NCBI GenBank assembly: GCA_029254025.1
Contig: JAQWYK010000002.1
Coordinates: forward strand, 62,001-126,000
DNA length: 64,000 bases
Direction of reading: 5' to 3'
Origin: Crocinitomicaceae bacterium
Lineage (GTDB): Bacteria > Bacteroidota > Bacteroidia > Flavobacteriales_D > Crocinitomicaceae
In this document: positions 38,093 to 44,356 of the stretch, one piece after another
Numbering within the stretch: position 1 is the stretch's first letter
Layout of the letters: each line of letters begins with the position of its first letter
Position numbers and translations under genes: made by a program
Notes under the pieces: model-generated
The model's input: only the letters and a program-made list of their open reading frames with translations
The model's database searches: none
Told to the model about the DNA's origin: nothing

Positions 38093-39535
38093 TCATATAT
38101 CCACCACCTCCGGATTACCCATCACCCGAACTACCCCTTTCTTTAACTCCATAATTGCAGAAAGATTCAGCACAATAAAGCTAATAGGTAGCAATGCATA
38201 AAAAACTGTAGGCACCTCAAAGAGGGCAAACGAAAAAGCGGCTAATAATGGACCACTTTGTTTTAGCGGCAAGGTATAGCACAAAAGAGCGAAAAAACCG
38301 TTATAGCTATTTAGTTCTTTGAATGACATTCTGTTTATAATCAACACATAAATTGTATAGGTTATTCCTGTTCCCAATATCGCAAATTGATAACTCACAT
38401 TACAGAAATACACAATAGATAGTGCTGCTAAAACATTAATTATAAGTGCAAAAAAGGCAATACCTGCTATTTTACGTTCTTTCTTTCGGGCCATAAGTAA
38501 AACTGGGGCACCAAAACAGTTGGTATAGATAAGTTTCGTTAAGAGTATAAGATAAAATGCAATTACTGAGTTTTGATATGCTGGAAAGAATACAATAAAA
38601 ATTGGAAATAGCGCAATTGCGAAATAACTCATTAACGAAACCAGCACTGTGTAATTACTTTGCATAAAATTAATCGAATTAATAGCGGTTTCGTCGTCTG
38701 AATTCGCTAAGCGATTAATCATTTTCGGAAAGATCAAAAACACAAAAGCACTAAGCGTTAATTCAATAATATTCGCTAAAGAAAATGCAAAGTTAAATAA
38801 CCCAAATTCTTCTACGGAATAAAAATAACCGATAATGCTTCGTGTCGTAAGTAGAATAAAATAAAAGGAGGCATTGTAAATAAAAAAATATAAACCTGAT
38901 TTTTGAATCTGTGTAAGTAGTTTTTTTGAAAAATTGAACTTGACCGATAAAGGACTGTTATACAAAAACAGAAGCAGCGCAGCTACATTTGCAAAAATCA
39001 TCCCCATTAATAAGTAGTAGATTAAATCCTCTTTAAATAAAATATATGCTCCTAGCATAGCGATTGGAACTACCGCTTGAAAAAAGGTGATTTCTTTTAA
39101 GCGATTATAGACTCTATACAGATTCATGAATACTCTATTAAAGTAACTGAGTACAATGATTATTACAACGTAAATCAAATAAGTGTCAAATTTATACTTA
39201 GTTCCTATACTAAATCCCATAAGTTGACTGCTGGCAAAAAAAACAATAACTAGCCCACAAACCAATGCTGTAAGGGTTAAAGCAGCGTTAAAATTAAACG
39301 TAACAAATTTTGTACTTTGTTTATGAATAGATACCAGCGCATTAAAAGAGCTAGGAATGCCGAAATCGATATGCGCAAAATACATAATAATTAACTGCGT
39401 AAAACTCCATATTCCAAAATCAAATGGAGATAGTAGCTTGGCAAGCATGAACGTATTGACAAACTGTAGTGCATAGATTGCGTAACGGCTAAATGTATAA
39501 CCTACTACTTTGTTTTTTAATAACTTACTAAGCAT
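38093..39535 (-). CDS. wzx: Wzx-type polysaccharide flippase
   Basis: This 480-residue protein has about twelve to fourteen hydrophobic segments and the N-terminal pattern of polysaccharide biosynthesis (MOP-superfamily) exporters (NKVVGYTFSRYAIYALQFVNTFMLAKLLSPFDFG). It would flip undecaprenyl-linked repeat units to the periplasm. It starts 14 bp after the decayed pseI remnant, so it followed the old synthase gene in the ancestral operon. It is separated from the sialyltransferase-like gene by about 106 bp. Confidence 0.87.
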   Translation of the reverse strand: MLSKLLKNKVVGYTFSRYAIYALQFVNTFMLAKLLSPFDFGIWSFTQLIIMYFAHIDFGIPSSFNALVSIHKQSTKFVTFNFNAALTLTALVCGLVIVFFASSQLMGFSIGTKYKFDTYLIYVVIIIVLSYFNRVFMNLYRVYNRLKEITFFQAVVPIAMLGAYILFKEDLIYYLLMGMIFANVAALLLFLYNSPLSVKFNFSKKLLTQIQKSGLYFFIYNASFYFILLTTRSIIGYFYSVEEFGLFNFAFSLANIIELTLSAFVFLIFPKMINRLANSDDETAINSINFMQSNYTVLVSLMSYFAIALFPIFIVFFPAYQNSVIAFYLILLTKLIYTNCFGAPVLLMARKKERKIAGIAFFALIINVLAALSIVYFCNVSYQFAILGTGITYTIYVLIINRMSFKELNSYNGFFALLCYTLPLKQSGPLLAAFSFALFEVPTVFYALLPISFIVLNLSAIMELKKGVVRVMGNPEVVDI

Positions 39536-39548
39536 GAATGCATGTCAC

Positions 39549-40160
39549 TTATTTGATAAATTCTAGCGAAAATCGACTTCCTTTGGTTAACTCGACATTT
39601 ACTTTTTTCCCAAAAACATCTTTCAAATACTTCGGATGCAAACCGAACCCAGTTCGAATTGACCTCACATTCTCCTCCGTAATTACTTGTCCGGTTTTCA
39701 TGTCCTTTATAACATAGATTGAAAGGCGAAAGTTCTTTCCAACTACTTATTTTCAATTAATTCACCTTCCCTAGGGCTTTTTGAGTTCTCTAACCGCACT
39801 TGCTATTTCTGACAACTCCTTTTCATCTATGGGAAAGGAGACATCTGGCCTACCAACGGAATGAGCCAAAACAACGTTTTTTTGAATGATTTAGCGCCAA
39901 AACATGTCGCTAACAAGAACAGTACTTTACATCGTGTGGTCTGATAGTTCTGTAATCAATTTATACCACTCAGCAAATCTTTGAACACAAACCTGTTTGC
40001 CTCTTAAATTGGTGCAGGATAAGTTTAAAGACATTTTAGAAAGGACATATCGTTATCACTATTCATTTTCCCCCTTTTCGATAAGTCTATCTCTTCAATT
40101 TGGACAATACCCGTTAAATTTATTATTGCCTTTACTTTTAAAGGTTAGTATAATATTTCT
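39549..40160 (-). pseudogene. pseI: Decayed pseudaminic acid synthase (pseI-type) remnant
   Basis: Reading the minus strand across frames recovers ordered blocks of a PseI-type synthase. They are KAIINLTGIVQIEEI (40132 downward), FLKC then TYPAPI with a TAA between, ELSDHTM, LAHSVGRPDVSFPIDEKEL, KALGKVN, then FRLSIYVIKDM and ENVRSIRTGFGLHPKYL, ending FIK and TAA at 39549-39551. These match the STG.A...EI, KCTSAYPAP, LSDHT, R-S-V-GGPD-x-x-F and SAF-domain blocks of known PseI. Several stops and at least three frame changes separate them, and the N-terminal third is missing. The remnant is not a copy of the intact synthase at 40701, whose SAF region differs. Confidence 0.82.
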
Positions 40161-40168
40161 TACAAATA

Positions 40169-40708
40169 TTATTTATTTGAAAACTCAATTTTAAGTAATG
40201 AAATTATTAATGAATTCCAATATTTACCATTTTCATAGCAATTTTCTCTTAAGACACCATCTACTTTAAAATTGAATACTTTTTTGAAAAAGGAAATTTT
40301 TGCTTCGTCAAATTCATATAATTCCATCCATATTTTATTTAAATTTAAATTATTGAAACCGTATTGAATTAGAAGAGAAACTGCTTCTTTAGAATTATTT
40401 TCTTCATTAATGTAAGTGTTGTTTTTTCCAATATAAAACGAAAAATCAGCTGATCTATTAATCCAATTAATATAAAGTAAACCACATGCACCTATTGGCT
40501 CATTAGTATTCAAATCAACAATTGTAAACATATAATTTATATGTTTCGTTTGTTGTAAACTATCAAACCATCTCTCTTGATCAATTATGGATAATTCTCT
40601 AACTTCTCTGAAATTTTTACGAAATTCCTCTATATTTCTCCAATCTCTGAAAAATTCTAAATCAGATTTTTCAACCGCTCTTAAACCTACATTATTACTT
40701 TTAATCAT
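40169..40708 (-). CDS. GNAT-family N-acetyltransferase in the nonulosonate cassette
   Basis: This 179-residue GNAT enzyme is related to RimJ/RimL and to PseH-type sugar N-acetyltransferases. Signs are GLRAVEKSDLEFFRDWRN at the start, GACGLLYINWINRSADFSFYIG in the acetyl-CoA-binding core, and FFKKVFNFKVDGVLRE at the end. It probably acetylates an amino sugar intermediate of the CMP-nonulosonate pathway. The gene overlaps the NeuB-like gene by 8 bp and is very AT-rich. Its stop codon borders the decayed pseI remnant, so it marks the edge of the replaced segment. Confidence 0.78.
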   Translation of the reverse strand: MIKSNNVGLRAVEKSDLEFFRDWRNIEEFRKNFREVRELSIIDQERWFDSLQQTKHINYMFTIVDLNTNEPIGACGLLYINWINRSADFSFYIGKNNTYINEENNSKEAVSLLIQYGFNNLNLNKIWMELYEFDEAKISFFKKVFNFKVDGVLRENCYENGKYWNSLIISLLKIEFSNK

Positions 40709-41777
40709 TTTCTATATCATTTAATGTTATTATGTTGCCACATTTTATTTCCTTATTAACTTTCCTGTTTATTATTTCATCAATTCTATATGGTTCTAAT
40801 GAACCAAACGGTTTTGGTCTTAATACTTCTATATCATCCTTTAGAATAACATGGCCAGGCATTATATCCTTATTAATTCTTAATGATCTTTGTTGAACTA
40901 TTTTAGAATCAATCTCATTTTCTTCAACTCTTTTTATACCATCACCCAAAGAATAGAACAATTCATTCCCATATTTTACCATATCGCTCCAAGACTTTGG
41001 ATTCATAGCAAATTTATGATCTGGCCCTTCATTTTCATTACTATCGGTAAAATGCTTTTCAATTAATCTTGCACCTTTTGCAATTGCTCCAAGTGTTGTG
41101 GCAAAACCAATTGTGTGATCTGATAATCCTAAAACAACATTAGGATACATTTTAGCATATAAATCCAAAACATTAAGATTTACAAATTTGTATTTATCTG
41201 AATTTAAGGTGTAGTTTGTATTACATTGCATTAAGCAAAGGGGCACATTTTTCGAAAGCAATAAATCCATAGCTCTCGTTACATCGCTTAAATCTGATGC
41301 TCCAGTTGCTAATAAAATCGGTTTGTTTTTAGAAGCAATATATTCAATAATTTCTAACCAAGTAATATCGCCTGAACCAATTTTATATAAATCAACAAAA
41401 GAATCGATTAAATTGATTGACTCAATATCATATGGGCTTGAAAAATAATCTAATCCAACTTCATTACATTTTTCCTTCAATAAGGGAGTCCAATCCGGAT
41501 TAATACTAGCATCTTCATATATTTCAAATACTGATTTTTTCCAGTTAGCTTGGTGAGACATCTTGGTGTTCAGATTTTCAAAACCATATTTACTCACGAT
41601 TTTCGAAGCTTTAAAATTTTGAAATTTAGCTGCATGACCACCACACTCCTTTACCAACTCTATTAATTTATAAGCGCGCTGTAAATCTCCGTCATGATTC
41701 GCTCCAATATCGGCGATATAATAAGGTTCATAATTTAAACCAACTTTTTTGTCTCCAATTAAAAATGAATTATGCAT
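40701..41777 (-). CDS. NeuB-family nonulosonic acid synthase
   Basis: This 358-residue enzyme condenses a hexosamine-like aldose with phosphoenolpyruvate to make a nine-carbon sialic-acid-type sugar. The NeuB barrel shows YIADIGANHDGDLQRAYKLI, AAKFQNFKASKIV, SSPYDIESINLI, KIGSGDITW, LATGASDLSDV, GLSDHTIGFA and ARLIEKHFTDSNENEGPDHKF. A C-terminal SAF domain (QRSLRINKDIMPGHVI, residues about 293-358) follows. Whether it makes neuraminic, legionaminic, pseudaminic or another acid cannot be told. It differs from the decayed PseI-type copy beside it. It overlaps the SDR gene by 8 bp. Its DNA is markedly AT-richer than rml and pgi, suggesting acquisition. Confidence 0.86.
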   Translation of the reverse strand: MHNSFLIGDKKVGLNYEPYYIADIGANHDGDLQRAYKLIELVKECGGHAAKFQNFKASKIVSKYGFENLNTKMSHQANWKKSVFEIYEDASINPDWTPLLKEKCNEVGLDYFSSPYDIESINLIDSFVDLYKIGSGDITWLEIIEYIASKNKPILLATGASDLSDVTRAMDLLLSKNVPLCLMQCNTNYTLNSDKYKFVNLNVLDLYAKMYPNVVLGLSDHTIGFATTLGAIAKGARLIEKHFTDSNENEGPDHKFAMNPKSWSDMVKYGNELFYSLGDGIKRVEENEIDSKIVQQRSLRINKDIMPGHVILKDDIEVLRPKPFGSLEPYRIDEIINRKVNKEIKCGNIITLNDIEND

Positions 41778-42657
41778 TTGTTCTTTTTTTAAAATCTTTA
41801 AATAAATTTTCTATTGTTTGCTGGATACTTGGAAAAACAATCCCATTATTACTTGCTTTAGCATTATTTAATGTTGTGTTTTTAGGTCTTTTAATCCCAA
41901 AATTTAGTGCATCAATTGAAATGGACTGTATTAATTTAATATCGAAATTAAATTCTTTTGCAATTTCTATCAAAAAATGATATTTCGAAATTGAAGATGA
42001 TGAACTAAAATTATATATTCCTTTTGGAATATTTAACGAAAGTAATTCATTGACCTTGTCAGCTAGGTCTTTAGTATATAATGGATTAAAAAAAACATCA
42101 TTAAAGCCTTTAATGTTTGCTGAATTTCTCAATTCATTAAAACCCCATTCAAAAAAAGAATTTCCTAAGCCAGGGCTAAAACCTATTATATTAGTTCTAA
42201 TTATGTAAGGATTTTTAGCAAAAGTAAGTACAATTTCCTCGCCTTTAGCTTTTGTTTTTGAGTAATTGTTTAAAGGATTGACAGTGTCCGTTTCTATATA
42301 ATTAGATTTGGTTCCGTCAAATACTGAATCCGTGGATATATAAATAAATTTGTCCGTTGTAGGATGAGAAGATAAAACTTTAGTTGAATTTACATGTAAA
42401 CTATATGCATTCTCATAATTCGCCTCGCAATCGTTAATGTTAACATTTGCCGCACAATGTATTATAATTTCAGGATTTATTAGATCCAATACTTGTTTTA
42501 AAGAATCTTCTTCAGTAATGTCAATTAAATAGTGATTTTTGGAAGTTTTTATTGAAGATCTACCAACTGTATAAACTAGGTAATCAAAAGATAATAATTT
42601 TAAAAATTCTTTACCTAACATACCAGATGCACCTGTTATTAAAAGTTTTTTTTTCAT
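41770..42657 (-). CDS. RmlD-like SDR sugar-nucleotide reductase
   Basis: This 295-residue extended short-chain dehydrogenase has the NAD(P) motif GASGMLGKEF, IIIHCAANVNINDCE, and the catalytic serine/tyrosine region YISTDSVFDG and YSKTKAKGEE (YxxxK). It resembles RmlD-type 4-ketoreductases. In the cassette it lies between the cytidylyltransferase and the synthase, where classical pseudaminic or legionaminic clusters have an aminotransferase or hydrolase. It may reduce a keto intermediate made by the PseB-like dehydratase, giving an unusual sugar. Start overlaps the pseF-like stop by 1 bp. AT-rich. Confidence 0.78.
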   Translation of the reverse strand: MKKKLLITGASGMLGKEFLKLLSFDYLVYTVGRSSIKTSKNHYLIDITEEDSLKQVLDLINPEIIIHCAANVNINDCEANYENAYSLHVNSTKVLSSHPTTDKFIYISTDSVFDGTKSNYIETDTVNPLNNYSKTKAKGEEIVLTFAKNPYIIRTNIIGFSPGLGNSFFEWGFNELRNSANIKGFNDVFFNPLYTKDLADKVNELLSLNIPKGIYNFSSSSSISKYHFLIEIAKEFNFDIKLIQSISIDALNFGIKRPKNTTLNNAKASNNGIVFPSIQQTIENLFKDFKKRTNA

Positions 42658-43346
42658 TAATCGGAATTTAACATTTTATACTTAATTTCGGCTAATTTCC
42701 AATCAATTTCATTATCAATGTCTTGGGCTTGCATCTCATCAATTTCTATACAACTTGTATTATTAGTCCAAAGTGAATTCGTTGATTTAATTATTTTAGT
42801 TTTAAACCAATAAAATTGTCCAGAATCAAAAAATGCAGGTTCTAAATCTTGTGAACGAGTATGAATAAATTCAGGAGACATCATAGATATTAGATCTTCT
42901 TGAAGTCTTAATGCTCTTTGTATGGGAGTTGAATATCTCACGACCGGAAAAACAGAATCAAAATCGTTATTTACAAGTTTATTGTAAATTTTTGAAAAGG
43001 TTTCTTTTTGTATTAAAGGTGTGCAAGGATATATGCAGCAACCAATATCAAAAAAAATATTATCCTTTTCATATCTTTCTATGACTTCTTTTAAAACATC
43101 AAAAGTAGTAGCGTAATCAGTACTATTTAACTCACTTCTATAGAAAGGCACCATTGCGCCATATTTTCGAGCAATTTCTGCAATCTCTTCATCATCTGTA
43201 GACACCATAACTTCATCAAAATATCCACTATTTATGGCTAAATCGATAGCATATGAAAGTATTGGTTTATCTAAGAAATGCTTTATATTTTTCCTGGGTA
43301 TTCTTTTACTTCCTCCCCGAGCTGGTATAATTGCAATTTTTTTCAT
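42657..43346 (-). CDS. pseF: CMP-nonulosonate (pseudaminic-type) cytidylyltransferase
   Basis: This 229-residue nucleotidyltransferase activates the nine-carbon sugar as CMP-sugar. The N-terminal signature IPARGGSKRIPRKNIKHF is standard. VMVSTDDEEIAEIARKYGA and CCIYPCTPLIQKETF match PseF (pseudaminic acid cytidylyltransferase) rather than NeuA. DIDNEIDWKLAE closes the protein as in the family. It overlaps pseB by 4 bp. The assignment as PseF is by motif similarity. Since a PseI-type gene has decayed next to it, the enzyme may now act on the product of the NeuB-like synthase. Confidence 0.83.
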   Translation of the reverse strand: MKKIAIIPARGGSKRIPRKNIKHFLDKPILSYAIDLAINSGYFDEVMVSTDDEEIAEIARKYGAMVPFYRSELNSTDYATTFDVLKEVIERYEKDNIFFDIGCCIYPCTPLIQKETFSKIYNKLVNNDFDSVFPVVRYSTPIQRALRLQEDLISMMSPEFIHTRSQDLEPAFFDSGQFYWFKTKIIKSTNSLWTNNTSCIEIDEMQAQDIDNEIDWKLAEIKYKMLNSD

Positions 43347-44356
43347 ATTTCAAAAGAAGAATCTACATGTTCCCTAATAAGTTTCCTCAAACTTTCAACG
43401 GTTTCCCACTCCGTATTATCTCCTGAATTGTAGGAAAATCCTTGAGGGACCAATGCGGCATTAAAATGGTTAATATATTCATCTAATCTCCATATGGGCG
43501 TTTGTGGAATAATCACATAATATTTACCTAAATCATAGGTAAAAAAAGAATCTGATGATGTAATCATTTCCTCATGGATTTTTTCTCCTGGTCTGATGCC
43601 AATCACGCGATGCTCACATTCTGGTCCAACTGCTTCCGCTATATCCGTAATTTTATAAGACGGAATTTTGGGGATAAATATTTCGCCGCCCCACGACGTA
43701 TCGAGCGCATGTAATACCATGTCTACACCACCTTGAAGTGAAATATTGAAGCGTGTCATTTCTTTTACTGTAATAGGAAGCACTCCTTCTTTCTTTTTAT
43801 TAATAAAGAAAGGAATAACTGACCCATTCGATCCCATCACATTTCCGTAACGTACTACAGAAAATTTAATGTCATGTTTTCCACGAATGTTATTCGCTGC
43901 TACAAACAGTTTATCTGACGTCAATTTAGTAGCACCGTACAAGTTGATTGGAGCACACGCTTTGTCGGTCGAAAGCGCTACCACATGCTTAACACCCGCT
44001 TGAATTGCCGCTTGAATCACATTTTCAGCACCATTAACATTCGTTTTGACACATTCATCTGGATTATATTCGGCAATATGCACATGCTTCATAGCAGCAG
44101 CATGAATGACATAATCGATTCCCTCAAATGCGCGCACTAAACGTTCTTTATCTCTAACATCTCCAATGAAGAAACGGATTTGTGGGTATTCGTGAACAGG
44201 ATAGTCCTGTGCCATGTGAAACTGCTTTTGCTCATCTCTTGAAAAAATGACTAATCGTTTGATGTTCGGCCATTTTTCTAAAATATTGTCAGTTAACGCT
44301 TTTCCTAAGGAGCCTGTACCTCCAGTAATTAGTATTGATTTGTTATTCAAGTCCAT
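43343..44356 (-). CDS. pseB: UDP-GlcNAc 4,6-dehydratase, inverting (PseB-like)
   Basis: This 337-residue SDR enzyme performs the first step of pseudaminic acid synthesis, turning UDP-GlcNAc into a UDP-4-keto-6-deoxy-L-sugar. The NAD(P) motif is GGTGSLGKAL; the block HAAAMKHVHIAEYNPDECVKTNV and ALSTDKACAPINLYGATKL are typical of PseB/FlaA1, and the Rossmann core follows the same order. VVRYGNVMGSNGSVIPFF is another family mark. It overlaps rmlD by 14 bp and pseF by 4 bp. Codon use is less AT-rich than the SDR, synthase and GNAT genes downstream, so it may belong to the older part of the cassette. Confidence 0.9.
   Translation of the reverse strand: MDLNNKSILITGGTGSLGKALTDNILEKWPNIKRLVIFSRDEQKQFHMAQDYPVHEYPQIRFFIGDVRDKERLVRAFEGIDYVIHAAAMKHVHIAEYNPDECVKTNVNGAENVIQAAIQAGVKHVVALSTDKACAPINLYGATKLTSDKLFVAANNIRGKHDIKFSVVRYGNVMGSNGSVIPFFINKKKEGVLPITVKEMTRFNISLQGGVDMVLHALDTSWGGEIFIPKIPSYKITDIAEAVGPECEHRVIGIRPGEKIHEEMITSSDSFFTYDLGKYYVIIPQTPIWRLDEYINHFNAALVPQGFSYNSGDNTEWETVESLRKLIREHVDSSFEI

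Follow-up and report, generated by a model that had tools for sequence, protein, structure and literature searches.

We found that the gap of about 600 bases between the GNAT gene and wzx in the window (the whole stretch of 64,000 nucleotides analysed here) corresponds to the last ~59% of pseI, through the natural PseI 3' end. Judged by its sequence, this remnant is a dead pseI-type gene rather than a duplicate of the neighbouring neuB. Most probably (we put it at roughly 0.8), a different nonulosonate cassette took the place of the central part of an older pse operon, and one break fell inside pseI. The genes run on the minus strand in the order rmlB-rmlA-rmlC-rmlD-pseB-pseF-SDR-neuB-GNAT-[remnant]-wzx-polysialyltransferase-like-wzy-glycosyltransferase, and the features concerned are listed in Table 1.

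Table 1. The pseI remnant and its neighbours (positions in the window).
Feature	Position	Strand	Remarks
Wzx flippase	38093..39535	-	directly after the remnant
pseI pseudogene	39549..40156	-	PseI model positions ~135-327; ~8 stops, at least 3 frame changes; lacks the 5' 41%
C-terminal SAF (antifreeze-like) part of the remnant	39552..39746	-	65 codons open; Pfam PF08666, E=4.7e-6
TIM-barrel part of the remnant	39747..40156	-	strongly decayed; SDHT motif kept, EKHF lost (reads QKNV)
Junction, GNAT stop codon to first PseI-like codon	40157..40168	.	12 bases; inferred break point
GNAT acetyltransferase	40169..40708	-	PseH-like, below cut-off; GC3 0.17
Intact NeuB-family synthase	40701..41777	-	TIGR03569 253.6 bits, cut-off 399.65; GC3 0.21
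SDR reductase (RmlD-like), new cassette	41770..42657	-	GC3 0.17
PseF-type CMP-sugar cytidylyltransferase	42657..43346	-	over PseF cut-off; GC3 0.19
PseB 4,6-dehydratase	43343..44356	-	over cut-off; GC3 0.32; clusters with same-family pseB from intact pse operons

A sequence-only reading had picked out blocks of a pseudaminic acid synthase in the minus-strand frames of the gap, separated by stops and frame changes, and had judged them closer to PseI than the neighbouring synthase is. All of the listed blocks are present in the three-frame translation, interrupted by about 8 in-frame stops and no fewer than 3 changes of frame, and the kinship was borne out by profile score, alignment and tree. 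The whole genome was scanned with the curated PseI model (TIGR03586), which matched three places: the window's intact neuB (E=2.3e-66), the gap, and one weak match elsewhere. The match in the gap (39573-39986, E=1.1e-25, 90.6 bits, model 185-326) contains six stops, namely 2 TGA, 1 TAG and 3 TAA. Read through with X at the stops, the blocks scored 116.8 bits with PseI (model 135-326 of 327) vs 62.3 bits with NeuB, a lead of 54 bits, and Pfam recognized a NeuB domain (model positions 115-239) followed by a SAF domain. The missing part amounts to 134 of the 327 model positions, or ~41% of the protein, plus the start; the loss at the GNAT boundary is thus real but larger than the N-terminal third first supposed. 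On its other side the remnant ends where PseI naturally ends, ~20 bases short of wzx. As a 59% fragment with 90.6 or 116.8 bits it lies below the PseI family cut-off (340 bits, full length); it is a leftover of the PseI family, not a member gene. Moreover, an order-wide survey found a PseI match in 74 of 399 genomes, and a match broken by stops in this genome only.

The frameshift-aware alignment with the nearest intact PseI (G040, L055) extends from window position 40156 to 39555 over 201 codons, of which 103 (51%) are identical, with 8 stops, 3 frame changes and a score of 426. Chance matches are ruled out by the controls, the highest score being 54 in 60 dinucleotide shuffles (mean 31.8, sd 4.6), 47 in 26 other stretches of the window and 34 on the opposite strand. 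At the DNA level, the remnant is 65% identical to G040 pseI across 455 bases. In a tree built on shared columns it falls within the PseI clade (support 100/98) and, inside that clade, in a subclade of same-family PseIs (100/99). Its end branch is 1.15 vs a median of 0.30, which is expected for a dead gene. Sequencing error can be set aside, as 8 stops, 3 frame changes, the 41% loss and the long branch are too much for it. The adjacent neuB belongs to the same superfamily and shows weak local similarity to the remnant, but the idea that the gap holds a decayed partial duplicate of it is refuted by identity (22% vs 49% to G040 PseI in the tree set), by alignment score (92 vs 426) and by the tree, and we regard its chance as practically nil.

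The two parts of the remnant differ in decay. The metal-ligand motifs of NeuB-type synthases are the SDHT and EKH histidines. With 8 stops, 3 frame changes and EKHF replaced, the remnant cannot be an enzyme. In the barrel, its identity to the intact genes is 0.40 vs 0.65 for the intact genes among themselves, with the differences mostly at codon positions 1 and 2; the extra change of ~0.15-0.2 per site means that the death of pseI was not recent. In the last 65 codons, by contrast, there is no stop or frame change and little sign of decay, the identity to intact genes being 0.44 vs 0.47 among themselves. None of 300 runs of simulated neutral decay matched to the barrel kept the end so well, under a model that ignores differences between lineages, and by codon positions the contrast between barrel and end is only ~1.5 to 2 standard deviations in a rough estimate. 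The undecayed SAF end would reflect either renewal by a later exchange that included wzx, or chance, or retention of a small SAF peptide. That the SAF domain is still made as a protein of ~50-65 residues, salvaged with a role of its own and kept by selection, seems to us very doubtful: standalone SAF genes were not found among the relatives, and no Bacteroidota-type promoter was found within the remnant by consensus. A 53-residue SAF match in G038 was rejected as a standalone gene because it is cut off by the end of a contig of 4148 bases.

We then compared the locus with those of relatives. Intact pse operons of the same family usually have pseB first and pseI last, and a flippase-family gene lies directly 3' of pseI in five of the nine relatives tested, one of these five being just under the cut-off. 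An intact pseI before wzx, which had been anticipated in related strains, does occur in a relative within the family: the G149 locus is intact and reads pseB (85% identical to the window's), further genes including pseF, then pseI, then wzx. The G149 locus thus supplies the intact homologue, the matching place and the related cluster by which a surface-polysaccharide remnant is recognized. With wzx as tracer, the G149 gene was the only match at E<=1e-40 (29%) among the other 239 genomes of the family. In the pseB tree, in which the labels pse and neuB are partly confounded with taxonomy, the window's pseB is sister to those of G040 and G149 (100/98) in an eight-member clade otherwise made of pse-operon genes only; G040 also holds the nearest PseI. 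Sliding identity along pseB, in search of a crossover, gave just a faint drop at the 3' end. No close strain turned up in which the locus is undisturbed, and the closest PseI is only ~50% identical; within the genus the sole other genome (84% complete) has neither PseI nor a close pseB.

These comparisons also bear on whether pseI was ever the resident synthase, since the fragment might be a 3' end that hitch-hiked with wzx out of a different strain with pse genes. With a flippase directly after pseI in five of the nine relatives, the end of pseI could easily travel along when wzx is transferred, and the undecayed 65 C-terminal codons beside wzx are what a second, later exchange breaking near 39750 could leave. 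However, the pseB at the far side is also of the pse-operon kind and of the same family, so that the simplest account takes both ends from one old operon; we hold the hitch-hiking to be distinctly unlikely.

The replaced middle is marked by base composition. GC3 is 0.17-0.21 in pseF, SDR, neuB and GNAT, and 0.31-0.36 in pseB, rmlA-D, the remnant and wzx, so that the composition breaks at the pseB/pseF border and at the GNAT/remnant border. Relatives of the neuB block occur across many phyla, and the exact order pseB-pseF-SDR-neuB-GNAT is also found in Winogradskyella, Flavicella and other Flavobacteriaceae, whose cassettes carry their own pseB (68-77% identical to the window's), which indicates that PseB normally belongs to that pathway. 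In the window, the old pseB apparently stayed or was exchanged where it stood. Flavicella has wzx after the same five-gene cassette with a gap of only 118 bases, which leaves no room for such a remnant. Some points speak against the replacement, among them the confounded labels of the pseB tree and the failure to find a close undisturbed strain, both given above. The window's pseF is nearest a pse-operon pseF in the tree (99/95) and only weakly joined to the cassette pseFs, so it may be an old gene and not part of the insert, although its GC3 says otherwise. A foreign origin is also possible for the genes past wzx.

A complete pse pathway (PseB, C, F, G, H, I) is absent from this genome: PseB and PseF are over their cut-offs, a PseH-like protein is below, PseI is dead, and the genome search gave no PseG and no PseC above its cut-off. 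The incoming cassette had been called sialic-acid-type, and this description is not supported. The block is not a sialic acid cassette when tested for a NeuB over the cut-off together with a NeuC-type epimerase, as its synthase stays below the NeuB cut-off (253.6 of 399.65 bits), its PseF is over the PseF cut-off, and no NeuC-type hydrolysing epimerase (PF02350) is found in the genome. The cassette at 40169-44356 (pseB-pseF-SDR-neuB-GNAT) has no aminotransferase or hydrolysing epimerase inside the block; most of the cassette-bearing genomes have a PF02350 gene elsewhere, and the window's genome has neither PF02350 nor PseG. Downstream, the gene at 37006-37986 matches the alpha-2,8-polysialyltransferase family (PF07388, E=9e-11), and its product is likely to transfer the nonulosonic acid now in use; L088 has a similar gene near the same cassette.

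We infer a replacement by recombination, its order of events and a change of surface sugar, and the replacement is supported by the GC3 breaks, the kinship of pseB, the intact order in G149, the absence of PseG and the lack of a PseC over its cut-off. An older pseudaminic acid operon, pseB ... pseI-wzx, would be the source of the surviving 3' part of pseI. One recombination, reaching from near the pseB/pseF border to mid-pseI, would have brought in the low-GC nonulosonate cassette pseF-SDR-neuB-GNAT and swapped the sugar pathway; pseB would have remained in use on one flank, with a beheaded pseI on the opposite flank. Having lost its start and the N-terminal 41% of the protein, pseI would have been useless and then have decayed, gathering stops and frame changes and losing the EKH metal-site motif. 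It is also conceivable, though unlikely, that pseI was first disabled by a point mutation and the cassette came later, or that the pse genes were replaced in several steps: a single sequence keeps no record of which came first, and pseI did not die recently. Nothing specific speaks against these variants; the position of the break, directly at the GNAT stop codon, argues for a single beheading event. Of the sequence-only claim that the pse gene died when the cassette arrived, the replacement of the middle of the pse operon is upheld by base composition and the pseB tree, while the arrival as cause or timing of the death is not. Similarly, its fossil of surface-antigen switching stands as a dead pseI in a mosaic cluster and falls short as a dating inside the lineage, the same-genus genome being without the relevant genes.

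The replacement reading gives a well-marked break point, with both ends of the old pse operon flanking a foreign-looking cassette, and makes a route of nonulosonic acid exchange in a Bacteroidota lineage readable from sequence. The present cluster would be a hybrid in which the old pseB probably feeds the new pathway.

Compared with PseI (TIGR03586; NeuB domain PF03102 plus SAF domain PF08666), the remnant shares the sequence family and the domain order, and in G149 PseI is the last biosynthetic gene before wzx, the same place as the remnant; unlike in PseI, its start and first 41% are gone, as is the EKH motif, and it carries ~8 stops and 3 frame changes. Nonulosonate (nab) clusters vary in Vibrionaceae and Moritella, with a NeuA pseudogene reported (PMC7371886). 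Like the present locus, they are described there as swappable Neu/Leg/Pse gene sets; the portions consulted contain no two-pathway mosaic with a PseI remnant (PMC7371886). The literature searched, a partial selection, gave no earlier description of a PseI remnant next to a neuB cassette. Remnants of wzy are known from the O-antigen clusters of Salmonella groups B1 and D1 (PMC3715488), and like them the pseI remnant is a dead piece of a gene for surface polysaccharide in which an earlier state of the cluster is preserved. In Salmonella, the polymerase was replaced by one at a distant locus and the serotype structures are known (PMC3715488), whereas here the piece comes from a sugar synthase in Bacteroidota and is seen in the genes only. 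The pseI remnant is thus a clear but ordinary fossil, a fresh example of a known process.
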